Assembly: GCF_026013905.1 (NCBI RefSeq)
Contig: NZ_CP110257.1
Coordinates: forward strand, 1,550,001-1,614,000
Length of the DNA: 64,000 bases
From: Schlegelella aquatica
Lineage (GTDB): Bacteria > Pseudomonadota > Gammaproteobacteria > Burkholderiales > Burkholderiaceae_C
Direction: 5' to 3'
Shown here: positions 1,860-17,303 of the stretch, piece after piece
Layout: each line of letters starts with the position of its first letter
Position numbering within the stretch: position 1 is the first letter of the stretch
The notes under the pieces: generated by a model
What the model saw: the letters and a program-made list of their open reading frames with translations, nothing else
The model's database searches: none
What the model was told of the DNA's origin: nothing
Made by a program: the position numbers and the translations under genes

Positions 1860-4127
1860 ATGATGCGCTTTCGCTTTCCCATCGTGATCATCGACGAGGA
1901 CTTCCGTTCCGAGAACGCCTCCGGCCTGGGCATACGCGCGCTGGCCGAGGCGATCCAGAAAGAAGGCTTCGAAGTGCTGGGGGTGACCAGCTACGGGGAT
2001 CTTTCGCAGTTCGCGCAGCAGCAAAGCCGCGCCAGCGCGTTCATCTTGTCCATCGACGACGAGGAGTTCGGCTCGGGCTCGAAGGAGGAGGTGGACGCCG
2101 CGCTCAAGAACGTGCGTGCCTTCGTGAGCGAGATCCGCTTCAAGAACGCCGAGATCCCGATTTACCTGTATGGCGAGACGCGCACCTCCCAGCACATTCC
2201 CAACGATGTGCTCAAGGAGCTGCACGGCTTCATCCACATGTTCGAGGACACGCCGGAGTTCGTGGCGCGCCACATCATCCGCGAGGCCCGCAGCTACCTG
2301 GATTCGCTGGCGCCGCCGTTCTTCCGTGCGCTGGTGGGGTACGCGCAGGACGGTTCCTACTCCTGGCACTGCCCGGGCCACTCGGGCGGTGTGGCCTTCC
2401 TCAAGAGCCCGATCGGGCAGATGTTCCATCAGTTCTTCGGCGAGAACATGCTGCGCGCCGATGTGTGCAACGCCGTCGAAGAGCTGGGGCAGCTGCTGGA
2501 CCACACCGGGCCGGTGGCCGCGTCGGAACGCAATGCGGCGCGCATCTTCAACGCGGACCATTGCTTCTTCGTCACCAACGGCACCTCCACCTCCAACAAG
2601 ATGGTGTGGCACCACACCGTGGCGCCTGGCGACGTGGTGGTGGTGGACCGCAACTGCCACAAGTCCATCCTGCACGCCATCATCATGACGGGGTCGGTGC
2701 CGGTGTTCCTCACGCCGACGCGCAACCACTACGGCATCATCGGTCCGATCCCGCAAAGCGAGTTCACGCGTGAAGCGATCGAGAAGAAGATCGCCGCCAA
2801 CCCGCTGCTGCAGGGCGTGGATGCCAAGAAGATCAAGCCGCGCATCCTGACGATCACACAGAGCACCTACGACGGCATCCTCTACAACACCGAGACGATC
2901 AAGTCGATGCTCGACGGCTACATCGACACCTTGCACTTCGACGAGGCCTGGCTGCCGCACGCGGCGTTCCACGGCTTCTATCGCGGCATGCATGCGATGG
3001 GCAAGGACCGTCAGAAGACCAAGGACTCGCTGGTCTTCGCCACCCAGTCCACGCACAAGCTGCTGGCGGGCTTGAGCCAGGCCTCCCAGATCCTGGTGCA
3101 GGAGTCGCAAGAGCGCAAGCTCGATCGGCACCTGTTCAACGAGGCGTATCTGATGCACACCTCGACCTCGCCGCAGTACGCGATCATCGCGTCGTGCGAC
3201 GTGGCCGCGGCGATGATGGAGCCCCCGGGCGGCACCGCGCTGGTGGAAGAAAGCATCATGGAGGCGCTGGACTTCCGTCGCGCGATGCGCAAGGTGGAGA
3301 AGGAGTTCGGCCGCGACTGGTGGTTCAAGGTCTGGGGGCCGGAGAAGCTCGCGCCGGCCGGCATCGGCGAACGCGACGACTGGATCATCAAGGGCGACGC
3401 CCGCTGGCACGGCTTCGGCAAGCTGGCCGACGGCTTCAACATGCTGGACCCGATCAAGTCCACCATCGTGACGCCGGGCCTGGACCTGAACGGCAAGTTC
3501 TCCAAGACGGGCATTCCCGCCTCGATCGTCACCAAGTATCTGGCCGAGCATGGCGTGGTGGTCGAGAAGACCGGGCTCTACTCGTTCTTCATCATGTTCA
3601 CCATCGGCATCACCAAGGGCCGTTGGAACACGCTGCTGACGGCGTTGCAGCAGTTCAAGGACGACTACGACAAGAACCAGCCGATGTGGCGCATCCTGCC
3701 CGAGTTCTGCGCGCAGCACCCGCGCTACGAGCGCATGGGCCTGCGCGACCTGTGCCAGAGCATCCACGAGACGTACGCCAAGGGCGACATCGCGCGCCTG
3801 ACGACCGAGATGTACCTGTCGGATCTGCAGCCTGCGATGAAGCCGAGCGACGCCTACGCGCGCATCGCGCACCGCGAGACCGAGCGCGTGGAGATCGACG
3901 AGCTCGAGGGCCGCATCACGACCTCGCTGCTGACCCCGTACCCGCCGGGCATCCCGCTGCTCATCCCGGGCGAGCGATTCAACAAGAAGATCGTGGATTA
4001 CCTGCGGTTCGCGCGCGAGTTCAACCGCAAGTTCCCGGGCTTCGACACCGACGTGCACGGGTTGGTCGAAGAGCTGGACGAGGCGGGCAACGCCAAGTAC
4101 TACGTGGACTGCGTGCGGCAGGACTGA
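1860..4127 (+). CDS. Orn/Lys/Arg decarboxylase (PLP fold type I)
   Basis: 755 residues, the length of the inducible AdiA/LdcI/SpeF class. It has the N-terminal receiver-like wing domain (FPIVIIDEDFRSENASGLG), the PLP core (YSWHCPGHSGGVAF; TNGTSTSNKMV; the PLP Asp region LHFDEAWLPHAAF; the Schiff-base Lys in ATQSTHKLLAGL), and a C-terminal decarboxylase domain. It releases CO2 from a basic amino acid to give agmatine, putrescine or cadaverine, for polyamine supply or acid resistance. The substrate cannot be fixed from sequence alone; arginine or ornithine is most likely given the length and the FDEAW motif. It stands alone between nfeD (divergent) and the glk-hexR fusion (convergent). A second ATG lies one codon downstream of the chosen start. 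Confidence 0.87.
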   Translation: MMRFRFPIVIIDEDFRSENASGLGIRALAEAIQKEGFEVLGVTSYGDLSQFAQQQSRASAFILSIDDEEFGSGSKEEVDAALKNVRAFVSEIRFKNAEIPIYLYGETRTSQHIPNDVLKELHGFIHMFEDTPEFVARHIIREARSYLDSLAPPFFRALVGYAQDGSYSWHCPGHSGGVAFLKSPIGQMFHQFFGENMLRADVCNAVEELGQLLDHTGPVAASERNAARIFNADHCFFVTNGTSTSNKMVWHHTVAPGDVVVVDRNCHKSILHAIIMTGSVPVFLTPTRNHYGIIGPIPQSEFTREAIEKKIAANPLLQGVDAKKIKPRILTITQSTYDGILYNTETIKSMLDGYIDTLHFDEAWLPHAAFHGFYRGMHAMGKDRQKTKDSLVFATQSTHKLLAGLSQASQILVQESQERKLDRHLFNEAYLMHTSTSPQYAIIASCDVAAAMMEPPGGTALVEESIMEALDFRRAMRKVEKEFGRDWWFKVWGPEKLAPAGIGERDDWIIKGDARWHGFGKLADGFNMLDPIKSTIVTPGLDLNGKFSKTGIPASIVTKYLAEHGVVVEKTGLYSFFIMFTIGITKGRWNTLLTALQQFKDDYDKNQPMWRILPEFCAQHPRYERMGLRDLCQSIHETYAKGDIARLTTEMYLSDLQPAMKPSDAYARIAHRETERVEIDELEGRITTSLLTPYPPGIPLLIPGERFNKKIVDYLRFAREFNRKFPGFDTDVHGLVEELDEAGNAKYYVDCVRQD

Positions 4128-4148
4128 CGCAGGCAGCGCCCCGCACCG

Positions 4149-5996
4149 TCACACCACGTGCGAGATGAGCACCCCTGGCCCTGCACCGGCTGAGCCGGCT
4201 TGCAGCTGAGGCAGGGCGGCGGCCGGGTCGCGTCGCATCGCGACGCCGACCGCGACCATGTCCACCACCAGCAGGTGCAGGATGCGCGAGATCATCGCGA
4301 TGAAGGTGGTGCTGTCTTCGCCGTGGTCCACCGGAATGCACACGGTCGCTTTGCGAGCCAGCGGCGACTTGCTCGCGGTGATCGCGATGACCGCCGCGCC
4401 GTGCTCTTGAGCGAGCGCGGCGGCCCGCACGAGTTCGGTCGATTGCCCGGAGCTGGAGATGAAGACGGCCACGTCCTGCGGGCCGAGCAGGTCGGCGGCC
4501 AGGGCCTGGAGGGCCGCGTCCGTGTGCGCGGCCGCAGGGATGCGGAAGCGGAACAGCTTGTGCTGGGCGTCCAGCGCCACGACGGCGGAGTTGCCGCTGG
4601 CATAGAACTCCACCCGCTGGGCCGCGCGCAGGATCTCGATCGCCCGGTCCACCGCCTCGACGTTGAGCGATTCACGGAACTGCACGATGGCCGAGATGGT
4701 GTTGTCGAGCACCTTCGCGCAAAGGTCGGGCGTGGCGTCCTGCCGGCGGACCTGGGTGCGCTGCACGGGGATGTTGCCGGTGAGGCCGGAGGCGAGCTTG
4801 AGCTTGAAGTCCGCCAGGCCCTGGAACCCCAGCGAGCGGCAGAAGCGGATGACGGTGGGCTGGCTCACCTCGGCCATCTGGGCGATCACGGCGACCGAGT
4901 CGTTGAGCACCGTGCGCGGGTTTTCGAGGACGAAGTCGGCCACGCGCCGCTCGGCGGGCGACAGCTGAGCCCGGGCTGCGCGGACTCGCTCCATCAGGGG
5001 GTTGCCGCCTTCGTGTGCCGGCACGTGCTCGGCGAGCAACGACGACACGCCGTGGAAGGCCGGGTTCTCGGCGGTGAGCACGTAGGTCGGGATGCGCGCG
5101 ACGTACCCCGAGAACCGCCCCTTGCTTTCGAAGCGTGCACGGAAGCCCGATTCCACGAACGTGCGGCCGAGGCGGGGCACGATGCCGCCGCCGATGTAGA
5201 TGCCGCCGGTGGCGCCGAGGGTGAGCGCCAGGTTCGACGCGACGGTGCCCAGCATGTTGCAGAAGCACTCGACCGCCTCGGCGGACCAGCGGCAGCTCTT
5301 CTCGATGGCGCGCTGCACGATCCGGGCCGCGGGCAGCGGACGCTCGGCCTCGGGGTCTCCCTCGGTCAGCGCTTCATAGATGAGTTCGAGGCCCGGCCCC
5401 GAAACGAGCCGCTCGGCCGACACGTGCGGCAGCGTCTTCCACGCATAGGCGAGGATGCGCATTTCGCGCTCGTCGCCGGGCGAGAAACTGACGTGGCCGC
5501 CCTCCGTGGCGAGCGTCGTCCAGCGATCGCCCGTGGGGACGAGGCCCGACACCCCCAAGCCCGTGCCGGGGCCGAGCAAGCCGATCACGCCGTTGGGTTC
5601 GGGCTCGCCGCCCCCGACCTGCTCGCGGCCCTCGGCACCGATGCGGGGCAGCGACATGGCCAGGGCGGTGAAGTTGTTCACCACCAGGAGCGTGGCCAGC
5701 CCCAACTGGCGCTGAACCTCCTGGATCGAGAACGCCCAATCCCGGTTGGTCATGCGCACCCAGTCGCCTTCGATCGGATTGGCGATCGCGACCGCCGCGT
5801 GCCGGGGTTTCACGCCCTCGGGCAGGGTCTGCAGGTAAGCCTGCATGACGTCGAGGAACCCCGGGTAGTCGGCGCACGGCAGCACGCGCACCTGCTCGAA
5901 GCGGCCGGGCACCTGCTCGAGGCAGAAGCGGGCGTAGGTCGCGCCGATGTCGGCCAGCAACCGGGGGTCGGGATAGGGCGTGAGGGACGCGCTCAT
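4149..5996 (-). CDS. glk-hexR: Glucokinase-like/HexR (RpiR family) fusion; kinase site degenerate
   Basis: 615-residue fusion of a ROK-like bacterial glucokinase domain (about 1-325) and a HexR-type regulator (about 331-615, an RpiR HTH with SQPTVIRFCRSLGFQG followed by a SIS phosphosugar-binding domain with YASGNSA and SSSGQSTE). This is the Burkholderia bifunctional glk architecture. The ATG at 5996 is chosen over an upstream start because AGGAGG lies 5 nt before it. The glucokinase half is eroded: the phosphate loop GGTNAR reads GATYAR (residues 18-23), and the catalytic Asp of the NDF motif is Asn (N107-N108-F109). EGGH and SGPGL are kept, so sugar binding may survive without catalysis. 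HexR proteins repress sugar catabolic genes and are released by 2-keto-3-deoxy-6-phosphogluconate. Last gene of the maltodextrin block; HexR-like palindromes lie in the lamB/glk intergenic region. Confidence 0.9.
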   Translation of the reverse strand: MSASLTPYPDPRLLADIGATYARFCLEQVPGRFEQVRVLPCADYPGFLDVMQAYLQTLPEGVKPRHAAVAIANPIEGDWVRMTNRDWAFSIQEVQRQLGLATLLVVNNFTALAMSLPRIGAEGREQVGGGEPEPNGVIGLLGPGTGLGVSGLVPTGDRWTTLATEGGHVSFSPGDEREMRILAYAWKTLPHVSAERLVSGPGLELIYEALTEGDPEAERPLPAARIVQRAIEKSCRWSAEAVECFCNMLGTVASNLALTLGATGGIYIGGGIVPRLGRTFVESGFRARFESKGRFSGYVARIPTYVLTAENPAFHGVSSLLAEHVPAHEGGNPLMERVRAARAQLSPAERRVADFVLENPRTVLNDSVAVIAQMAEVSQPTVIRFCRSLGFQGLADFKLKLASGLTGNIPVQRTQVRRQDATPDLCAKVLDNTISAIVQFRESLNVEAVDRAIEILRAAQRVEFYASGNSAVVALDAQHKLFRFRIPAAAHTDAALQALAADLLGPQDVAVFISSSGQSTELVRAAALAQEHGAAVIAITASKSPLARKATVCIPVDHGEDSTTFIAMISRILHLLVVDMVAVGVAMRRDPAAALPQLQAGSAGAGPGVLISHVV

Positions 5997-6143
5997 CGGC
6001 GCCTCCTGGGCGACGCTGGGCAGCGCGTCGGACGACACCGAAACGGCATAGCCGGATAGCTGCAGGACAGGCATGGGTGGACGGCCTCCACCTGCACTGT
6101 AACCAAGAATGTGTCCGCGGCGGCCATCGGGCGGTCTCGCATG

Positions 6144-7853
6144 TCAGCGCGCGCCGGGCGCACGCTCCAGCAACACCACGGGCTGTGCCGGAAGATGAAC
6201 GGCTCCGTCGCGCACGACGTGACGCTGGCCGGTGTAGGCGTCGTGCAGGTGTTCGCCCTCTGCGAACACACCGCCCACCGGGACGGAGGCCGGTTTCGTC
6301 AGGCGCAGTGCGACGAGCACGCGGTCGCCGGAGGCGGCGTCCACCCGGGCGAAAGCGTAAGGCTCGTCCTGGAGCATCCGGTGTTCACCGCGGGCGAGCG
6401 CGACATGTCGCGAGCGGAACTGCCCGAGCTTGCGCCAGTGCTGCAACAGGGCCGTGTCCATGGAGCACCAGTTCATCGGCGAGCGGGTGGCCTGCTGGGG
6501 GTCGCCCCGTGGTGACGGCCCGGCCGGACGGGCCGTCTCGTCGCCATAGTAGATCTGCACGCCACCGGGCGCGAGCATCAGCGCGGTGGCCGCGTCCCAC
6601 AGCCGCCCGCGATCGAAGAGTTCGGTGTCGTGTGAGGAGATATAGGCCAGGTTCGTGAATCCGGGTCGGCCGGCATACACCCGCGCGTAAGCCTGGTACA
6701 ACGCCTCGGGCCGCGCATACTGGGCGCCGCGCTTCTGGAAGTCGAAGTCGAGCATCGCGTCGAACCCGGCGTCGTGAAGGTGCGAGCGTTGCGGCCCGTG
6801 GCCCCAGTACTCGCCCACCATCCAGAACGGCGCATCGTCGATCTTCTTGGTCGGGTGGCGCGCTTTCCAGTCGGCCAGGGCCTTGACCGCTTCGCGCTTG
6901 AGTTCAGCCCAGGCCTCGGGCTCTACGTGCTTGACCGTGTCGGCCCGGAAACCGTCGATGCCGTACTCGCGCACCCAGTGCGTCAGCCACTTGACGAGAT
7001 ACCCCCGCACCGGGGTGTCGGGGAGGTCCGTGGCCTGCGTGTCCGTCTTGCGCCGCAGGAACTCGGGCAGCCGCACGGGCGCTTTGCTTTCGGTGCGGAA
7101 GTCGGGCAGATGGGCGAGCTGCATCGTGCGGTCGTCTCGCCCACCGTCGATGTAGCCGGGCAGCCCGGCCCGCACCCAGTCGCGCCCCCACCACTGGCCG
7201 AAGGCGAAGTTGTTGTAGTCGATGTAGCTGTGATAGTCGCGCAGCGTCGCTTTCTCGCTGCCAGGCCACAACACCTGGGGCAGCAACTCGCGGGCGGTCT
7301 GCAAGTCCAAGTAGCCGGGGTGATTCATCACCACGTCGAACAGCACGCGGATGCCCTGCGCATGGGCGGTGTCGACCATCTCGCGCAGTTCCTCGGGCGT
7401 GCCCATGTTCTTGTCGAGCAGGGTGTAGTCCAGCGCGTAGTAGCCGTGGTAGGCGTAGTGCTTGAACTCCTTGTCGCCGCCCACCACCCAGCCGCGAATC
7501 TGCTCGTACGGAGCGGTGATCCAGAGGGCGTTGACGCCCAGCTCCTTGAACCACCCCTCCTTGAGCTTGGCGGTCAGGCCCGCAAGGTCGCCGCCATGGA
7601 AGGTGCCGATCTCCTGCTGCCCGTCCTTCTGCCGTCCATAGGAGTGATCGTTGCTCGGGTTGCCGTTGTAGAAGCGGTCGGTCACCACGAAGTAGACGAT
7701 CGGGTTGTCGGCGAAGCTGCCGGGCACCGCGGCGGGCGCCGATGCCGCCGCTGCAGCCCAGGGGGCGCGCGAGTCCGCGGGCGCGGCCGGAGGCGGCGCA
7801 GTGCAGCCGCTGCACAGAGCGGAGGCCAGGGCGATCAAGGCGTGCAATCTCAT
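6144..7853 (-). CDS. Lipoprotein alpha-amylase, GH13
   Basis: 569 residues. A short signal ends in the lipobox LCSGC, so it should be lipid-anchored on the periplasmic or outer-membrane side. The GH13 barrel shows all four conserved regions: RVLFDVVMNH (I), GIDGFRADTVKH with the nucleophile Asp (II), MVGEYWGH with the acid/base Glu (III) and YISSHDTE (IV). It would cut starch or long maltodextrins to malto-oligosaccharides for the adjacent LamB/MalEFGK uptake system. An in-frame GTG start 13 codons upstream is possible; neither start has a clear ribosome site, and the ATG gives the tidier lipoprotein signal. 115 nt downstream of malG in the same direction. Confidence 0.9.
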   Translation of the reverse strand: MRLHALIALASALCSGCTAPPPAAPADSRAPWAAAAASAPAAVPGSFADNPIVYFVVTDRFYNGNPSNDHSYGRQKDGQQEIGTFHGGDLAGLTAKLKEGWFKELGVNALWITAPYEQIRGWVVGGDKEFKHYAYHGYYALDYTLLDKNMGTPEELREMVDTAHAQGIRVLFDVVMNHPGYLDLQTARELLPQVLWPGSEKATLRDYHSYIDYNNFAFGQWWGRDWVRAGLPGYIDGGRDDRTMQLAHLPDFRTESKAPVRLPEFLRRKTDTQATDLPDTPVRGYLVKWLTHWVREYGIDGFRADTVKHVEPEAWAELKREAVKALADWKARHPTKKIDDAPFWMVGEYWGHGPQRSHLHDAGFDAMLDFDFQKRGAQYARPEALYQAYARVYAGRPGFTNLAYISSHDTELFDRGRLWDAATALMLAPGGVQIYYGDETARPAGPSPRGDPQQATRSPMNWCSMDTALLQHWRKLGQFRSRHVALARGEHRMLQDEPYAFARVDAASGDRVLVALRLTKPASVPVGGVFAEGEHLHDAYTGQRHVVRDGAVHLPAQPVVLLERAPGAR

Positions 7854-7943
7854 GAGGGGCAAGGCGAGAAGTGGTCGTGGCGACCCGGGCACGGGCCGTG
7901 TCTCACGAGGGAAAGAAGTCGGGGGGCGGCGGGCTCTTCGGCC

Positions 7944-7970
7944 GAAGGGGTCTGTGGCGCGCGCCCCTTC
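7944..7970 (-). other. Hairpin at the malG stop codon
   Basis: GAAGGGG (7944-7950) and CCCCTTC (7964-7970) form a perfect 7-bp stem overlapping the end of malG; a second small palindrome, CTTCGGCCGAAG, lies at 7936-7947. There is no T-tract, so a pausing or mRNA 3'-end protecting role is more likely than full termination. It may lower expression of the downstream amylase and glk-hexR genes. Confidence 0.35.
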
Positions 7971-8859
7971 AACCCTTCAGGCCTCCCGCGGTCAGGCCCG
8001 ACACCATCCATTTCTGGGCCAGGATGAACACCACCGTGATGGGAAGACCCGAGAGGATGGCTGCCGCGGCGAAGTCGCCCCAGAGGTAGCGCTGTTCATA
8101 GAGGAACAGGCGCGAGCCGACCGCCAGGGTGAGCTTGCCTTCCTCGTTGAGGAGCACCGACGCGACGGGGTACTCGATGATGGCGCCGATGAAGGCGAGC
8201 AAGAACACGACCAAGAGGATCGGCACCGCCATGGGCAAGAGCACCAGCCGGAACGCCTGCCACGGCGAGGCTCCGTCGACCTTGGCCGCTTCCTCGATCT
8301 CGGCCGGGATGGTGTCGAAGTAGCCCTTGATCGTCCACACGTGCAGGCCGATGCCGCCGGCGTAGGCGAGCAGCAACGAGGCGTGGCTGTCGATGCCGAA
8401 GAGGGGAAAGACGTTGCCGATGCGGTCGAAGATGGCGTAGATGGCCACCAGCGCGAGCACGGCCGGGAACATCTGGATCATCATGAGTGCGGAAAGCGCC
8501 TGCGACTTGCCGCGGAACTTCATGCGCGCAAAGGCGTAGGCCGCGGTGGTGGACAGCAGCAGGATCAGCACTGCGGAAAGCGTGGCTACCTTGACCGAGT
8601 TCCACAGCCACTTGAGGACGGGAAAGGGCGGCTGCACGAGCCGGCCGTCGGCGTCCTGATAGGAGATGCCCAGCGCCAGCTTCCAGTGCTCCAGGCTGAT
8701 CTGGTCCGGGATGAGGCTGCCGCTGGCGAAGTTGCCCGGCCGCAGCGAGATCGACAGGATCATCAGGAAGGGGAAGGTGATGAGGCACACCAGCGCGACG
8801 AGGAAGGCGTGCGCCGCGAACACGCGCCAGCGGTGCGACTTGTCGAGAACGATGGCCAT
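7969..8859 (-). CDS. malG: Maltodextrin ABC transporter permease MalG
   Basis: 296-residue inner-membrane permease with six predicted transmembrane segments. The cytoplasmic EAA loop ([17 protein letters not shown], around residue 190) docks the ATPase MalK. It follows malF after a 4-nt gap, so the two are probably translationally coupled. Together with MalF it forms the translocation channel for malto-oligosaccharides delivered by MalE. Length and C-terminal sequence are typical of MalG. Confidence 0.93.
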
Positions 8860-8863
8860 GGTT

Positions 8864-10399
8864 TCAGCGTCCTTCTTCCTTCGTGATGCGGGTGGCGCGC
8901 AGGTTGATCCAGGACAGGAGCGCGACCATCGCGAAGATGACCGTCGAGATGGCGGCCGCGAGCCCGAAGTTCTGCCCCGAGTCCTCGAAGGCGATGCGGT
9001 AGGTGTAGGAGACCAGGATGTCGGTCGTGCCCGCGGGGATCTTGGTGTCCAGGAAGTCCGGCCGCCCGTTGGTCAGCAGGTTGATGAGCACGAAGTTGTT
9101 GAAGTTGAACGCGAAGGCCGCGATCAGGAGGGGCGTCAACGGCTTGAGCACCAAGGGCATCGTGATGCGGAAGAAGTTGGTCAACGGCCCCGCTCCGGCC
9201 ACTGCGGAGGCTTCGTACAGGTCGGCCGGGATCGCCTTGATGAGCCCCATGCACACGACCATCATGTAGGGGTAGCCCAGCCAGGTGTTGACGATCAGGA
9301 TCATCACCTTGGCGAGGAACGGGTCCGAGAACCACGCGGGCTTGATGCCGAAGAGGGCATCGAGGATCAGATTGATCTCGCCGAAGTTGTTGTTGAACAA
9401 GCCCTTGAACACCAGGATCGAGATGAACCCCGGCACGGCATAGGGCAGGAACAGCAGCGTCTGGTACAAGCCCCGGAAGCGCAGCGCCTCCCAGCTGAGC
9501 AGCACCGCGAGCAGCATGCCCAGGGAGGCTGCGAAGAAGACCGTGAGCGCCGCGAAAGTCACCGTCCAGCCGAAGATGCGCAAGAAGGGCTGGCGGAAGG
9601 CTTCGTCGGTGAACACGCGCAGGTAGTGGTCCCATCCGATGCGCACCTGGAAGCCGGGCGGCACCGCCTCTGCGCTGGGGCGCTCGAAGAAGCCGGTCTC
9701 GAAGTTGGGCCGCAGCACCTCGCCCGTTTGCTGGTTGACGAGCGTGTGGCCCTCACCCTCGCGGTACAGGTGAGCCACTGGGCCGAAACGCCTCAAGCCC
9801 GTCATTCGCAACTCGGTACCGTCCGGCAAGGCGATCGTCAGCGCGCGCAGTTGCGGCTGCAGACGGATCACCTCCTTGAGCTCGACCGGGTTGACGATGC
9901 CGAGCCCCCCGGCCGGCTCGGGCTGCGCCTCCACGCGCAGCGGCTCGGACCGCGAGAGGGCCAGTGCCGGGGTCACGAAGGCCTTCTGGCCGTCTTCATC
10001 CTCCAGGCGCGCGCGATACTCACGGCCGTCGCCGTACAGCGTGAACTGGTAACTCTCGCCTTCACTCTGGTACGTCTCGTCGAGGAAGTACTGGCGGGCC
10101 CGCTCGTAGGTCAGCAGATGGCGCGAGCTGTAGTTGGAAAAGCTGAGCGCCACGGTGTAGAGGATGGGAAACACCACGAAGATGACCACCGCCGCGATGC
10201 CCGGAAAGAGGTAGCGGTAGGCGTACAGGCGCTGTGAGGTGTACACCCACGCGGCCAAGCCGACGATCACGAGGATCGTGCCGGCAAGCAGGAACTCTCC
10301 CGCCGCGTAGACGGCAGTCACGAGGTACAGCGCGAGGAGCGCGAGCGCGGCGCCGGCAGCAGGGCCGATCCAGCGTCGCAGGCCGGGTGTTGCATTCAT
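8864..10399 (-). CDS. malF: Maltodextrin ABC transporter permease MalF
   Basis: 511 residues, the large MalF type. Three N-terminal transmembrane segments (to about residue 85) are followed by a periplasmic P2-like domain of roughly 180 residues, which contacts the binding protein, then a second membrane domain with an EAA loop ([19 protein letters not shown], near residue 400). It pairs with MalG. It is separated from malE by 91 nt that hold a strong hairpin. The start ATG lacks an obvious ribosome site, consistent with lower translation than malE. Confidence 0.93.
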
Positions 10400-10445
10400 G
10401 TCGTGGCGGGCCGCGCAAGCGGCAGGTGCGGCGGGAAGCTCCAGT

Positions 10446-10484
10446 GGGCGCCGGACGCGGCGGCGCGTCTCGCGTCCGGCGCCC
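10446..10484 (-). repeat. 13-bp perfect hairpin between malE and malF
   Basis: The arm GGGCGCCGGACGC (10446-10458) is exactly complementary to GCGTCCGGCGCCC (10472-10484), with a 13-nt loop, starting 6 nt after the malE stop. No T-tract follows, so it is not a standard terminator. Its position matches that of the REP stabiliser between malE and malF in Escherichia coli, which keeps binding-protein mRNA abundant relative to permease mRNA. Confidence 0.7.
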
Positions 10485-10490
10485 CGTGCA

Positions 10491-11690
<1,200 letters not shown>

Positions 11691-11773
11691 TTCAGTGCTC
11701 CTTTGGGTGTTGCCTCTCGGGCGTTCGTGTGAGCCGTTGGTCTCGACTCGTCTCAGAACTCTGGTGTCGCCGC

Positions 11774-12874
11774 TCACGAGGGCGCGCGGGCGAGCGCGAC
11801 ACCCTGGGCGTCGAACAGGTAGGCGCGTGCGGGCGCGACGGCCAGGTGGGCCGCATCGCCCGGCGTCAGCGGGTTGTCGGGGTCGGCGCGCACCACCACC
11901 GGGCCTTGTGCGCCGGCCACCTCCAGATAGAGGTAGGTCGTATCCCCCAGATGCTCGGCCACCTGAACCACGCCGCGCAGCGAGTTGCCCGCCGTCGCGC
12001 CGGTGGCCACGAGGTGCTCGGGCCGCACACCCAGCGTGAGCGAAGTGCCCGGGGCCAAGCCGGGGGCGCTGGCGGCTGCGTCCACCGCGCTGCCATCGGC
12101 GAGCCGCACGCGCACCCGCTCGGCCGAGGCCGACTCGACGGTCACGGGCACGAAGTTCATCTTCGGTGAGCCGATGAAGCCTGCGACGAAGAGATTCGCC
12201 GGCCGGTGATAGAGCTCGAGCGGCGCTCCGACCTGCTCGATACGGCCCGCGTTGAACACGACGATGCGATCGGCCAGCGTCATGGCCTCGACCTGATCGT
12301 GCGTCACGTACACCATCGTCGTCTTGAGTTCGCGGTGCAGCCTCGACAACTCGACGCGCATCTGCACACGCAGCGCCGCATCCAGGTTGGAGAGGGGTTC
12401 GTCGAAAAGGAACACACCCGGCTTGCGCACGATCGCGCGGCCGATGGCCACCCGCTGGCGTTGTCCACCGGACAGGGCCTTCGGCTTGCGGTCCAGCAGG
12501 TGCTCGATCTGCAGGATCTGGGCCGCACGCTGCACCGCCGCGCGCTGCTCGTCCTTGCTGTAGCCCGCCAGACGCAGTCCGAAGGCCATGTTCTCGGCCA
12601 CCGTCATGTGGGGGTAGAGCGCGTAGCTCTGGAACACCATCGCGATGCCTCGCTTGGCCGGGGGCACCTCGTTCATCCGCTGCCCCCCGATGTAGAGATC
12701 GCCCGCGGTGATCTCCTCCAGGCCGGCAATGCAGCGCAGCATCGTGGACTTGCCGCAGCCCGAGGGGCCGACGAACACGATGAACTCGCCGTCCTCGATG
12801 TCGAGGTCGATCCCGTGCAGGGTCTCGATCTCGCCGTACGACTTGCGCAGTCCTTTGAGTTGCAGATGGGCCAT
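11774..12874 (-). CDS. malK: Maltodextrin transport ATPase MalK
   Basis: 366 residues. The ABC ATPase domain (about 1-235) has Walker [10 protein letters not shown], signature [14 protein letters not shown] and Walker [15 protein letters not shown]-terminal regulatory TOBE/OB domain (about 240-366) is typical of MalK/UgpC/MsmK. It powers MalFG. The gene lies 13 nt after the alpha-glucosidase gene, so transport and intracellular hydrolysis are co-transcribed. In enteric bacteria the C-terminal domain binds the regulator MalT, but no MalT-like gene is visible here. Confidence 0.94.
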
Positions 12875-12887
12875 GTCGATCGGAAGG

Positions 12888-14552
12888 TCAGTCGGCCAGG
12901 GCAGCGAAGTACGCGCCGTACGGCGGCAGTTCCAGGTCGCGGCCGTCCAGGCGGCCGAACTGTCGGGGTGCGAAGCCGTGTCCCCTCAAGGGCGTTGCAC
13001 CGGGCAGTCGCGGCAGGCGCACCTTGACGGGGTGAGCCGCGGTGTTGAAGGCCGCCAGCATCCGGGTGGCCTCGCCGGCTCGCTCGGGCAGGCGCTCGAG
13101 GGCCAGCACGGGCTGCGGCACGTCGATGAAGCGGATCGACCCGCACACGAGGGCGCGATGCTGCTTGCGCCAGGCCAGGAAGGTGCGCGTGAAGTGCAGC
13201 ACGGAGTCAGGGTCGGCCTCGTTGATGTCCACCGCCAGCTGGCGATGCGTCTCGGGGACCGGCAACCAAGGCTCGACGGCGCGCGCACCGCTGAAGCCGG
13301 CGTGGGGCAGGGTGCTGTCCCAGGGCATCGGCGTGCGGCAGCCGTCGCGCCCCTTGAACTCGGGCCAGAAGTTGATGCCGTACGGGTCCTGCAGGCGCTC
13401 GTAAGGCACCTCGGCCTCGGGTAAGCCCAGTTCGTCGCCCTGATACCAGCACGCGCTGCCACGCAGCGACAAGAGCATGGCCAGCGCCAGTTTGTTGTAG
13501 GCCGCGGGTGCGTCGGGGCCGCCCCAGCGCGTGCGCACGCGCGCCACGTCGTGGTTGCCGAGAGACCAGCAGGGCCAGCCGCCGTCCATCGCCGCTTCCA
13601 GCTCTTCGACCTGGCTGCGGATGTAGGTGGCCGTGTTCTCGTGCGTGAGCAGGTTGAAGCTGTAGGCCATGTGCAGCTTGTTGCCGCTCGCGGTGTAGGC
13701 GGCCATCGTCGCCAACGCGTTGTCGTCGCCGATCTCGCCCAGGCTCGCCGCACCGTACTCGTCCAGCAGATCGCGCACCTTCTCCAGAAAGGCCAGGTTC
13801 TCGAACTGCGTCTTGTCGTACAGGTGCTGCTGCATGCCGTACGGGTTGGTGTCCTGCACCGACTGGGTGTCGCGCTTCTTGGCTGGCGGGTTGTCGCGCA
13901 GTTTGCGGTCGTGGAAGTGGAAGTTGCAGGCATCGAACCTGAAGCCGTCCACTCCTCGCTCCAGCCAGAACCGGATGTCGGACAGCACCTGGCGCTGCAC
14001 TTCCTCGCAGTGGAAGTTCAGGTCCGGCTGGCTGGTGAGGAAGTTGTGCAGGTAGTACTGGCGCCGTCGCGCGTCCCACTGCCACGCCGACCCCCCGAAC
14101 ACACTCAGCCAGTTCGTAGGCGGCGTGCCGTCGGGCTTCGGGTCCGCCCACACGTACCAGTCGGCCTTGGCGTTGCTGCGGCTGGAGCGGCTTTCCTGGA
14201 ACCACGGGTGCTGGTCGGAAGTGTGCGAGAGCACCTGGTCGATCACCACCTTGAGGCCCAGTTCGTGGGCTCGGGCGACCAACCGGTCGAAGTCCTGCAA
14301 GGTGCCGAACATCGGATCGACGTCCCGGTAGTCCGAGATGTCGTAGCCGAAATCCTTCATCGGCGAGCGGAAGAACGGCGAGATCCAGATCGCATCGACG
14401 CCGAGGCCGGCGACATAGGGCAGCTTGTCGATGATGCCCGGCAGGTCGCCGATCCCGTCGCCGTTGCTGTCGGCGAAGCTGCGCGGGTAAATCTGGTAGA
14501 TGACTCCGCCGCGCCACCAGGCGTCGAGCGGACGAACGTCGGTCTTGGACAT
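12888..14552 (-). CDS. Cytoplasmic alpha-glucosidase, GH13
   Basis: 554 residues without a signal peptide. It begins in the manner of the oligo-1,6-glucosidase/alpha-glucosidase family ([20 protein letters not shown]). Catalytic regions: [13 protein letters not shown] (I), [12 protein letters not shown] with the nucleophile (II), SLGEIGD with the acid/base Glu (III) and SLGNHDVAR (IV). It should release glucose from imported malto-oligosaccharides, feeding the divergent glucokinase. The alpha-1,4 versus alpha-1,6 preference cannot be settled by eye. It lies between lamB and malK and shares their transcript. Confidence 0.92.
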
Positions 14553-14612
14553 GGAAGAGGCTTTCCGGGATCGGACGCAATGGCCTGGCCGGCGTGCCGG
14601 TCAGGACGTTGC

Positions 14613-14651
14613 GCCCTCCTCGTGGAGGGCGAAGGAAAGGGCCGCACGGCC
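14613..14651 (-). other. Two tandem hairpins between lamB and the alpha-glucosidase gene
   Basis: GCCCTCC-TCGT-GGAGGGC (14613-14630) and GGGCC-GCAC-GGCCC (near 14638-14651) are adjacent perfect stems directly downstream of lamB. Neither is followed by a T-run on the minus strand. They probably attenuate or process the transcript so that the porin message exceeds that of the downstream genes. Confidence 0.45.
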
Positions 14652-14666
14652 CTCAACCACGGGCGA

Positions 14667-15923
14667 TCACCACCAGGCTTCTACTTGGATGCCGTAGGTC
14701 ATGCCGTCTCGGTCGTTGCCGAACACTCCGCCCGTGCCGGCGTTGCCGGCCGCGTCGTTCCATTTGGCGTACGTGGCGAAGGCGCGAAACACCGGGCGCG
14801 ACCAGAAGCCCCGCGACAGCGACAGCTGAGGCGCGACGGTGAACTTCGTCAGGTGAGCGGTGGCCTTGCCTTCTTCCTTCGTGCGATCGTGTCCGAGCTC
14901 GAAAGCCAGGCTCATGTGATCGCTGAAGTTGTACTGAGGACGCACGCCGATGCTGTACCAGGTGGTCTTGTTGCCGTTGTCCGGCTTGACCTGCTCGGCC
15001 ACGAAGGCGGCCATCCCCGACCAGTTCGACCCCTGCGGCGCGATGTAGAGCTGGTCGATGAAGCGCCAGCTCGAACCTTTGGCAGAGCGGTTCGCATCGC
15101 GGAAGGTCGGCACCGACGCGCCGCCGAAGCCGGCGTCGTTGCCGATCACCAAGGCCGCCTTGTTGAAGCCGCCCAGGATGCCGGTTTGCATGTGCTCGGC
15201 GAACAGCGCGAAGCCATTGCCCTCGCCACCGGCAGGACTCCCCGCGCTGTCGCCCTTCAGGAGCACGAGCTCGAACTCGAGCTTGCCATTCGGGTTCACC
15301 GGGATGTCGTAGACGCGGGCCGACAGGCGCCGAGTGTTGAGCCCATTGACCGCGTCGTTGACCAGGGTGTCGTCGCCTTTGCTGTGGTAGGCCAGCGCCA
15401 GCTTGGCCGCGCCGCCCAGCGCGATGTCCTCGATACCGCCGCCCAGACCGCTGTTGTTCCAGTAGTAGTAGTCGTTGATGTGGATGTCGTGGCGGTTGTA
15501 GTAGCGCTTGCCGATCCAGACCTTCGCGTTCTGGAGGGCGCCGGGGCCGAAGAAGCCGCCGGCCTCGAAGTAGTTCTGCCGGCTGGCGATGTCGAACTTG
15601 TCCCCCTTGACGCTCTCGAAGTCCGACGCGGCGTTGTTCTCGATGGTGGCCAGCATGAGGTTGTATTTCGCGTAGGGACCGTCGGACTTGCCGAAGGGCA
15701 GGGCGAACGCCACCTCGCCGTACGTCTCGCACTCGTTGCCCAGGCGGTACTTGGCGCCGGCGCCGGGTGCGCTGAAGCAGACCTGCTTGCCTCCCTCGCT
15801 GCTCGAGCCGGTGCCCGTGCGCAGGTAGCCGTGGAACTCCAGACCCTGCGCGCTCGCCGGCATCGCGCCGAAAGCGCCCGCAACGGCTGCGGCTGCTGCG
15901 AGCAGCTTGAACTTGCCTCTCAT
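14667..15923 (-). CDS. lamB: Maltoporin LamB
   Basis: 418-residue outer-membrane porin. A signal peptide (about residues 1-25, ending ASA-QG) is followed by LEFHGYLRTG, the LamB opening. Further family hallmarks are VWIGKRYYNRHDIHINDYYYW and a C-terminus ending in aromatic residues (EAWW), needed for outer-membrane assembly. It forms an 18-strand trimeric channel for malto-oligosaccharides. The start has GAGGAG 7 nt upstream. It is the first gene of the minus-strand maltodextrin block, and its promoter lies in the 402-bp divergent region that carries HexR-like palindromes. Confidence 0.94.
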   Translation of the reverse strand: MRGKFKLLAAAAAVAGAFGAMPASAQGLEFHGYLRTGTGSSSEGGKQVCFSAPGAGAKYRLGNECETYGEVAFALPFGKSDGPYAKYNLMLATIENNAASDFESVKGDKFDIASRQNYFEAGGFFGPGALQNAKVWIGKRYYNRHDIHINDYYYWNNSGLGGGIEDIALGGAAKLALAYHSKGDDTLVNDAVNGLNTRRLSARVYDIPVNPNGKLEFELVLLKGDSAGSPAGGEGNGFALFAEHMQTGILGGFNKAALVIGNDAGFGGASVPTFRDANRSAKGSSWRFIDQLYIAPQGSNWSGMAAFVAEQVKPDNGNKTTWYSIGVRPQYNFSDHMSLAFELGHDRTKEEGKATAHLTKFTVAPQLSLSRGFWSRPVFRAFATYAKWNDAAGNAGTGGVFGNDRDGMTYGIQVEAWW

Positions 15924-16133
15924 CGGTGAACTCCTCGTGGTTCTTGGGTGGGAAATGACCGGCGCACGACATGTCGTCGAGGGCCGGAGGGTGGGAAATC
16001 GCAGAGCCGGGTGCAATCGTTCGGCCGCGCTCAGGCTGCCCGAGCCACACGGCCTCGCCCCTGCTGCGCAGGCGAGGGCGGGGGTACCGAATGAGGTGCG
16101 GGAAGGGCGAGCCATGGGAGGGTTGGTAACAGG

Positions 16134-16153
16134 ACTACAAGAAGGGATGTAGT
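16134..16153. promoter_or_regulatory. HexR-like half-site pair, lamB-proximal
   Basis: ACTACA (16134-16139) and TGTAGT (16148-16153) form an inverted pair with an 8-nt spacer. The half-sites match the other two palindromes in this divergent region but in everted order. They could be two half-sites on the lamB promoter side. Weaker than the sites at 16174 and 16295. Confidence 0.35.
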
Positions 16154-16173
16154 TGGACAACGGCGCGAACTCT

Positions 16174-16188
16174 AGTAGTGGAACTACT
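16174..16188. promoter_or_regulatory. HexR-like operator 2
   Basis: AGTAGT-GGA-ACTACT is a perfect 6-bp inverted repeat with a 3-nt centre, the same spacing and core (TAGT-N3-ACTA) as the site beside glk. It lies midway between lamB and glk, placed to act on lamB transcription. Confidence 0.5.
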
Positions 16189-16259
16189 CCACGCATAGGA
16201 GGGTTATCCCCTACTGTTTCAAGTTGACGGTCCCGCCATGGGCAGCAGATGCGGCGACA

Positions 16260-16290
16260 TTGGACAAGTCGCCGAGGGACGCGGTAGGAT
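16260..16290 (+). promoter_or_regulatory. Candidate glk promoter
   Basis: TTGGAC (16260-16265) and TAGGAT (16285-16290) are separated by 19 bp, slightly long for sigma70. Initiation near 16297 would fall inside the palindrome at 16295-16311, giving a leader of about 29 nt before glk. The rest of 15924-16325 shows only the palindromes listed. Confidence 0.4.
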
Positions 16291-16294
16291 GAGC

Positions 16295-16311
16295 GTGTAG
16301 TGCAACTACAC
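16295..16311. promoter_or_regulatory. HexR-like operator 1, at the glk start
   Basis: GTGTAGT-GCA-ACTACAC is a perfect 7-bp inverted repeat with a 3-nt centre, ending 14 nt before the glk ATG. It resembles the TGTARTnnnAYTACA class of palindrome reported for HexR-family regulators. A HexR domain is encoded at the far end of the same locus. Confidence 0.65.
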
Positions 16312-16325
16312 CCATTCTTGACTGC

Positions 16326-17303
16326 ATGACCCCCACCCTCACGCATCCACGCCTCGTCGGAGACGTGGGTGGAACCAACGCGCGATTCGCCTGGGTAGAG
16401 GCGCCGGGCGCGGCCTTGAGCGACGTCGCCTCGTATCGCTGCGCCGACCATCCCTCGCTGGAGGCGGTCCTCTGCCGCTACCTGGAGGAGCGCCGCAAGC
16501 CCTTGCCCGCCTCGATCGCCATCGGGATCGCGAACCCGGTCGTCGGCGACCAGGTGCAGATGACCAATCACCACTGGTCGTTCTCCATCGACGCCATGCG
16601 TCGCAGCCTGGGGGTGGAGCGCTTGTTGGTGCTCAACGACTTCGCCGCCCTCGCGTTGTCCCTGCCTGTCCTCGGCCCCGAAGGCGTGCGGCAGGTGGGG
16701 GCGGGCGCGCCCGCAGCCGACGCTCCTCTTGCTCTCGTGGGGCCCGGCACGGGCCTCGGGGTCTCGGGCCTGTTGCCCTGTGGGGGGCGGCGCCACGTCC
16801 CGCTGCAAGGCGAGGGCGGACATGCCACGCTGGCGCCCTTCGACGAACGCGAGGAGGGGGTCTTGCGCGTGCTGCGCCGGCGTTTCGGACACGTCTCGGC
16901 CGAGCGCGCGGTTTCGGGCCCGGGGCTCGTTCACCTCTACACCGCGCTGTGCGAGCTCGACGGCGTGCGTGCCCAACCACTGGAAGCCGCACACGTCACC
17001 GAGCGGGCGCTCCAGTCACGCGACGCCCGCTGTGTGGAGGCGTTGGAACTGTTCTGCGCCTTCCTTGGCAACGTGGCCGGCAACGTCGCTCTCACGCTCG
17101 GTGCCCGCGGGGGGGTCTACATCGCAGGAGGGATCGTGCCGAGGCTGGGCGAGTGGTTCGCGCGCTCGCGGTTTCGGGAGCGCTTCGAGTCCAAGGGGCG
17201 CTTCAGGGCCTACCTGGAGCAGATCCCCACCTACGTGGTGTGCGCTCCCACGCCCGCCTTGCTCGGGGCCGCCCGCGCGCTCGAGGAGCTGGACCCGGTG
17301 TGA
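16326..17303 (+). CDS. glk: Glucokinase, catalytic residues intact
   Basis: 325-residue glucokinase of the E. coli Glk family. It has the ATP phosphate loop GDVGGTNARFAW (about 11-22), the catalytic NDF motif with Asp (LLVLNDFAALALSLP, about 105), LVGPGTGLGVSG, EGGH and SGPGLVHLY. It converts glucose released by the alpha-glucosidase into glucose-6-phosphate. It is divergent from lamB and shares the regulatory region with it. It resembles the glucokinase half of the glk-hexR fusion but keeps all catalytic positions that the fusion lacks. No clear ribosome site; the start is chosen from the position of the domain. Confidence 0.93.
   Translation: MTPTLTHPRLVGDVGGTNARFAWVEAPGAALSDVASYRCADHPSLEAVLCRYLEERRKPLPASIAIGIANPVVGDQVQMTNHHWSFSIDAMRRSLGVERLLVLNDFAALALSLPVLGPEGVRQVGAGAPAADAPLALVGPGTGLGVSGLLPCGGRRHVPLQGEGGHATLAPFDEREEGVLRVLRRRFGHVSAERAVSGPGLVHLYTALCELDGVRAQPLEAAHVTERALQSRDARCVEALELFCAFLGNVAGNVALTLGARGGVYIAGGIVPRLGEWFARSRFRERFESKGRFRAYLEQIPTYVVCAPTPALLGAARALEELDPV

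Follow-up and report, generated by a model that had tools for sequence, protein, structure and literature searches.

The stretch of DNA analysed here (the window) comprises 64,000 nucleotides of Schlegelella aquatica, positions 1,550,001 to 1,614,000 of contig NZ_CP110257.1. On its minus strand, the reading frame at 4149..6074 encodes a predicted pseudoglucokinase fused to an RpiR-type (HTH_6) and SIS regulator, with profile matches to PF02685 (354 bits, cut-off 22.1), PF01418 (70 bits) and PF01380 (59 bits). The helix-turn-helix region VSQPTVIRFCRSLG at 4827..4868 and the SIS loop SSSGQS at 4440..4457, both on the minus strand, were located by profile match and sequence. The frame ends with a stop at 4149 and can start at ATG 5996, which has AGGAGG 5 nt ahead of it and gives 615 aa, or at ATG 6074, which has GGAGG 10 nt ahead of it and gives 641 aa. 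The 26 N-terminal residues added from ATG 6074 show the pattern MPxLxLSS...LPSV, which is common to close relatives, so the 641-aa form may be the real product; ATG 5996, the start used in an earlier note on this DNA, is possible too. Residue numbers below refer to the 615-aa form. The protein ends in a tail, PGxLISH (4152-4178), that has no counterpart in stand-alone HexR. Past the 3' end of the fusion gene lies an Orn/Lys/Arg decarboxylase-like gene on the plus strand (1860-4127, named from sequence); a Pfam match to the same decarboxylase family is found at 12800-15067 of locus L052, near another fusion of the type described here.

The fusion gene is the last of a series of genes on the minus strand that resembles a maltodextrin operon. 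In order of transcription, these are a LamB-like maltoporin (14667..15923, start ATG 15923; named from sequence and place), a GH13 alpha-glucosidase-like enzyme (12888..14552, named from the sequence of its ORF), a malK-like ATPase (11774..12874; NF008653 above cut-off, NF008233 529.5 of 568 bits), malE (10491..11777, NF007011 above cut-off), malF (8864..10399, NF008232 above cut-off), malG (7969..8859, NF008231 above cut-off) and a GH13 alpha-amylase (6144..7892; PF00128 106.7 bits, best NCBIfam NF007060 at 634.7 of 790 bits and hence below cut-off). Past lamB, on the plus strand, a separate glucokinase gene (glk, 16326..17303) encodes 325 aa with intact GGTNAR, NDF and EGGH, as seen from the ORF and its motifs.

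This order recurs, with variations, in many loci from named genomes in which the fusion carries the same catalytic change (Asn-type, see below), and in most relatives, as in the window, the fusion gene stands at the end of the operon. The LamB-like gene holds the same place in relatives, a close relative of the GH13 alpha-glucosidase-like gene lies ahead of malK in seven loci (L034-L038, L049, L050), and in six (L039, L040, L042, L048, L063, L065) malG and the fusion are separated by a gene that is only distantly related to the GH13 enzyme found there in the window. Besides the window, 15 loci have the divergent glk past lamB; L227 and L228 have another gene in its place. The family sample contains 20 Asn-type genomes: in 14 of them the distance between malF and the fusion is 4-6 kb, in three it is 11-16 kb, and in the remaining three malF was not found on the contig of the fusion. 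Across 399 genomes, any fusion and MalF occurred together in 75, the fusion alone in 11, MalF alone in 7 and neither in 306; these are raw counts that ignore relatedness, and 3 of the 86 fusions are partial matches. In L052, the Asn-type fusion adjoins a TonB receptor and a tryptophan-halogenase-like gene; the Asp-type fusion of L101 has both beside it as well.

By profile scores, the protein resembles a glucokinase, and its regulator half has the order expected of the RpiR family, HTH_6 and then SIS. It passes the cut-offs of TIGR00749 for glk (305.7 against 225.45 bits) and of NF001416 (396.6 against 383), and it misses those of the bifunctional model NF010701 (810.1 of 920 bits) and of the HexR model NF008451 (240 of 296 bits). 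ROK (PF00480) was absent among the four families that matched in a profile search with E up to 0.001.

Next we compared the residues of the glucokinase half with E. coli Glk (structures 1q18 and 1sz2), which aligns with it along the glucokinase domain. The codon AAC at 5673..5675 (minus strand) encodes Asn108, the second Asn of VVNNF, which aligns with the catalytic Asp100. The phosphate-1 loop, DxGGTNAR in the family, reads DIGATYAR at 5928..5951 (minus strand) against DVGGTNAR. Two hallmarks of an active glucokinase, the Asp of NDF and the GGTN of the phosphate-1 loop, are thus absent and replaced by Asn and GATY. On the sugar side, EGGH (5493..5504, minus strand; Glu157 and His160 of E. coli Glk) and SAERLVSGPG with the Glu187 equivalent (5391..5420, minus strand) are kept. 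The earlier note had claimed the Asn codon, the change from GGTNAR to GATYAR and the intact EGGH and SGPGL motifs, and all of these agree with the codon and the alignment.

The five glucose ligands of E. coli Glk, which we take to be Asn99, Asp100, Glu157, His160 and Glu187, also agree with this alignment. In the available passages of a paper on GNE, that protein is said to conserve five residues that bind the sugar in the E. coli Glk-glucose structure (N, D, E, H and E; PMC2742894); by that list, four of the five glucose ligands are unchanged in the fusion and the fifth is changed from Asp to Asn. In E. coli Glk, His160 and Glu187 hydrogen-bond glucose and His183 binds phosphate, as the accessible text of PMC12312565 describes. 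For human HK2, the excerpted results report that the D209A/D657A double mutant has diminished activity and that D209A (Asp to Ala) in the N-terminal half also loses glucose stabilisation (PMC5803496). Glucose binding by the fusion may be weakened, because the Asp is itself a ligand and because HK2 D209A loses glucose stabilisation; replacement by Asn is milder than Asp to Ala.

It turned out that the Asn form is widespread among relatives. We assembled 461 Glk sequences. Of these, 223 are unique ORFs taken from fetched loci; the other 238 are database proteins with a length of 560 residues or more, which came from the best 120 scored candidates per search and were counted as fused by length. 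Two short database proteins were dropped, and some genomes are possibly in both sets. The catalytic position is Asn in 129, Asp in 214 and unreadable in 1 of the 344 fused sequences, a ratio that is no census since most of the sequences were gathered for their resemblance to the window protein or to a single Asp-type relative. The 117 Glks counted as stand-alone have Asp in 116 cases and Gly in one (L066). This exception is from a metagenome-assembled genome, its frame runs off the contig end and its loop is GATH, as fused relatives have it; it may therefore be a fusion that is cut off there. The equivalents of Glu157, His160 and Glu187 are conserved in all 461 sequences. Among the carriers of the Asn are named genomes of Caldimonas, Piscinibacter, Rhizobacter, Albitalea and Methylibium.

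In a tree of 225 representatives, from which the trait columns had been taken out beforehand, all 57 Asn sequences lie within one clade of 60 (SH-aLRT 99); deep branches are weakly supported (7 to 82). The exceptions inside the clade are three single Asp tips (P0079, P0096, P0098), and the minimum number of changes is four. Apparently, the Asn form goes back mostly to one evolutionary event in one clade of Burkholderiales. At loop position 14, two of the three Asp tips have also lost the aromatic residue, a hint that this position and the catalytic one are coupled, two cases being too few to say more. Within the clade, the equivalents of Asn99, Glu157, His160 and Glu187 are invariant in the 57 representatives. 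The phosphate-2 and GG loops are conserved as well, and since they are kept, nucleotide binding by the fusion is possible; for ATP sensing, which the earlier note had considered, the comparison speaks neither for nor against.

We also took the positions that are conserved to 93% or more among 87 stand-alone representatives and compared them with those of the 57 Asn-clade representatives. The clade departs at G12A, D100N, H183 (58% Arg) and L306F, with relaxed conservation at 111 and 290; three further flagged columns (150, 207, 229) are dominated by gaps and were rejected as alignment noise. N14 is below the 93% cut-off in stand-alone Glks. Several groups that keep the Asp are altered at positions 12-14 too, and loop types among the fused sequences include GGTY or GGTF (166), GATN (16) and GATH (12). 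As for the C-terminal tail, its G, I, S and H are each present in all 57 Asn-clade representatives; PGxL[TI]SH is found in most altered-loop Asp-type fusions and is mostly missing from two intact-loop fusions.

The earlier note had proposed to ask whether loss of the Asp tracks with a separate intact glk. A second full-length PF02685 gene is present in 23 of 23 Asn-type genomes searched; it has NDF in all 23, and its loop is GGTN in 20, GGTH in one and unread in two. These counts cover glucokinase genes of the PF02685 family. However, a separate glk was also found in all 22 tallied genomes whose fusion keeps the Asp with an altered phosphate loop (in one of them, G606, the fusion frame is only 461 aa), the tally leaving out G302, G139 and G641, where the fusion loop was unread. 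Another Glk is present as well in three genomes with GATN or GASN fusions (G066, G225, G130). We therefore rejected the loss of the Asp as the step tied to a separate glk. Of seven genomes whose fusion has both GGTN and Asp intact, four have no other full-length PF02685 gene (G078, G519, G680 and, with one partial extra match, G587; not G651, G617 or G675). The second glk thus seems to accompany the loop change and not the loss of the Asp alone, which suggests, in a sample that is small and phylogenetically uneven, that the loop change had already ended the enzyme role and that the Asp was lost later. In L133 (G264 C196:8390-11230), L020 and L205, a stand-alone glk lies directly ahead of the fusion in tandem; it is possible that these loci picture how a second glk came to lie beside the fusion. 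In other families of the order (L252-L255, L258, L260), glk and hexR adjoin with a stop between them and are unfused.

To estimate selection, we used Nei-Gojobori dN/dS and give medians of 40 pairs per group, in which pairs overlap in sequences. For the Glk half, dN/dS was 0.206 in the Asn group and 0.223 in the group of Asp-type fusions that have Tyr or Phe at position 14, and stand-alone Glk gave 0.070; for the regulator half, the values of the two fused groups were 0.156 and 0.216. The Asn-type glucokinase half is under purifying selection, which is weaker than on true glucokinases: its dN/dS is about threefold that of stand-alone Glk.

The interval between lamB and glk contains candidate sites for a regulator. 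Motif matches in it are the predicted operator sites GTAGTGGAACTAC (16175..16187) and GTAGTGCAACTAC (16297..16309), the latter approximately where glk transcription would start, and two operator-like sites with one mismatch, GTAACAGGACTAC (16126..16138) and GTAGTTGGACAAC (16149..16161). With one mismatch allowed, the window has 13 matches against 5.6 expected, so the two mismatched sites count only by their place. The sequence GTAGTNNNACTAC has two exact matches in the genome, both in the lamB-glk interval (26 for the reversed control), and GTAGNNNNNCTAC has three, two of them in the interval (303 for the reversed control); neither control is equal in composition. In the whole genome (3.35 Mb), exact GTAG-N5-CTAC is found at three places, two of them between lamB and glk and the third at 936422, where it overlaps glycosyltransferase-like ORFs (named from sequence) and looks like chance. 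A sigma-70-like promoter facing glk, TGGACA-18-TAGGAT (16261..16290, plus strand, consensus match), is the single one in 15850-16400 (0.0 expected) and also the only one in 4000-16400 (1.0 expected). Its predicted -10 box ends at 16290, and the site at 16297-16309 lies just downstream; a site in this place points to repression, the -10 box being known by its match to the consensus only.

We then looked for the palindrome in relatives. All 16 glk-upstream regions of the Asn clade, the window included, hold GTAGN5CTAC, with 35 sites against 0.05 expected from first-order shuffles. Because the motif was derived from the window, a fair test has to rest on the remaining 15 regions; all 15 have a site (33 sites). 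Twenty loci had been given for this test; L053, L227 and L228 yielded no glk region, and the duplicate L226 was dropped. In 14 whole loci (280 kb) there are 32 sites, equal to the count in their upstream regions, and no further GTAGN5CTAC was found in these loci outside the glk-upstream regions. In L227 and L228, three sites lie close to the lamB start. The exact palindrome was not found at the Asn-type loci L051, L052 and L064, which belong to one genus; in genomes matching these three, malF is 11-16 kb from the fusion. Regions by other fusions hold GTAGN5CTAC in 45 of 55 cases. The palindrome would thus be a feature of the fusion family rather than of the Asn form, and it supports the regulator role, not that of a dead kinase. 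Taken together, the sites strongly suggest that the fusion binds the GTAG-N5-CTAC palindromes of the lamB-glk divergent promoter and represses the operon and glk.

The earlier note had labelled the regulator half HexR, and this label probably does not hold. The genome has two HTH_6 genes, the fusion and a HexR-like gene directly after zwf. Upstream of zwf lies the only GGTAANNNNNTTACC of the genome, a palindrome that was read from this very region, so that its uniqueness is no independent proof; we infer that it is the HexR site. In P. putida, HexR represses zwf and leaves the DNA upon binding KDPG, as stated in the available parts of PMC5902321 and PMC5489143. The fusion, with its likely sites at the maltodextrin operon and glk and its NF008451 score below cut-off, is probably not HexR. 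A single base pair in each half-site may thus be what separates the sites of the two regulators. The note had also proposed a phosphosugar input, for which the SIS domain is the candidate. In the Asn clade, SIS Ser514 is kept in 57 of 57 representatives and Ser516 in 53 of 57, in favour of such an input; the loop at positions 565-567 differs from that of HexR and speaks against it. The fusion is probably a local repressor of the maltodextrin operon and the divergent glk, and neither HexR nor a glucokinase.

We favour the reading that the fusion is a repressor in which a dead glucokinase serves as the sensor, and put its probability at about 0.6. From the sequence, we infer glucose sensing, the loss of activity and any SIS input. 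The earlier pseudokinase-sensor idea survives in so far as a likely pseudokinase with a kept sugar pocket is fused to DNA-binding and SIS domains and maintained by purifying selection; its HexR identity probably falls away. In such a mechanism, maltodextrin would be taken up and hydrolysed to free glucose, glucose would close the cleft of the dead kinase domain and release the helix-turn-helix domain, and uptake, hydrolysis and glk would then be induced together. A phosphosugar on the SIS domain is a possible second input. A fuller version is tentative: a two-input repressor, responding to glucose and to a phosphosugar on SIS and acting on glk and the maltodextrin operon, might have arisen stepwise from a bifunctional glucokinase-repressor by gain of a second glk, decay of the loop and change of Asp to Asn.

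It is rather unlikely that the Glk half is a vestigial scaffold that neither catalyses nor senses and serves folding or oligomerisation only, while SIS alone senses a phosphosugar, for example one that the neighbouring glk makes. The threefold higher dN/dS and the kept SIS serines would fit this, as would the related HexR, which, in the available text of PMC5489143 and PMC5902321, acts via its SIS domain. However, the invariance of the four sugar ligands in 57 representatives goes beyond the needs of a scaffold, and the 565-567 loop has drifted from HexR. We regard it as unlikely that glucose acts as a co-repressor in catabolite control or that the dead pocket binds a different sugar, for example maltose or trehalose. 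Sequence fixes neither the sign nor the exact ligand, but glk under the same sites better fits induction by glucose, and the residues retained in the pocket are the ones that bind glucose.

That the Asn form is still an enzyme of weak or altered kinase activity, bifunctional as the NCBI models name the family, seems quite improbable. The TIGR00749 and NF001416 scores, the kept phosphate-2 and GG loops and the three clade members with Asp argue for it; against it stand the combination of D100N with G12A and N14Y, the separate glk in 23 of 23 genomes, the missed NF010701 cut-off and the diminished activity of HK2 without the equivalent Asp, as given in the excerpts of PMC5803496. The earlier note had named a strain-specific change or a sequencing error as a reason to give up the finding. 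An error of sequencing or assembly, or a decaying strain-specific pseudogene, has a negligible chance and was rejected: nothing in the window supports it, 129 of the 344 fused sequences, some of them from named genera, share the Asn, and the domain is under purifying selection. A frameshifted copy exists in one draft genome (L053), where several mal genes, glk and the fusion are split across frames, probably owing to assembly quality.

A sensor-repressor of this kind can be compared with several known systems. The bifunctional regulator/glucokinase of NF010701/PRK14101 has the same domain order, and the fusion scores 810 bits over most of its length; unlike that family, the fusion stays below 920 bits, has a changed catalytic Asp and phosphate loop, and is tied to maltodextrin genes. 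The one intact-motif fusion with annotated neighbours (L106) lies beside zwf, whereas the window fusion lies beside maltodextrin genes. ROK repressors (Mlc, NagC) likewise repress sugar genes and have a sugar-kinase fold, and Mlc acts on the maltose system through malT, according to the accessible text of PMC2742894. The fusion belongs to another kinase family (PF02685) and carries C-terminal RpiR and SIS domains for DNA binding, so it is an analogue of ROK proteins and not a member. HexR shares the HTH and SIS domains and, in this genome, likely 13-bp palindromes, GTAA/TTAC at the presumed HexR site against GTAG/CTAC for the fusion, one base pair apart in each half-site; the fusion differs from it in the NF008451 score (240 of 296 bits), in the 565-567 loop and in the added tail. 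In plants, HXK1 S177A is catalytically inactive and still binds and senses glucose, as the available part of PMC8256278 reports, so the principle of sensing by a dead kinase is known. HXK1 is a moonlighting plant enzyme, whereas the fusion is, by its sequence, probably a naturally dead bacterial DNA-binding protein. In the open-licence PubMed Central literature, as far as its available text goes, we found no account of a dead Glk-RpiR fusion, and a search on the catalytic Asp likewise gave nothing.

If this reading is true, the principle of the sugar-kinase repressor, which is known from ROK proteins, would have originated a second time, the transition from sugar kinase to repressor having arisen independently of that family. 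The intermediates of this transition would still be living, as fusions with intact loop and Asp, with altered loop and Asp, and with altered loop and Asn. In these bacteria, proteins that now bear the name glucokinase may have a regulatory role instead, and metabolic models would then be misled. With the predicted operator, the maltodextrin regulon of Caldimonas and its relatives can be tested directly.
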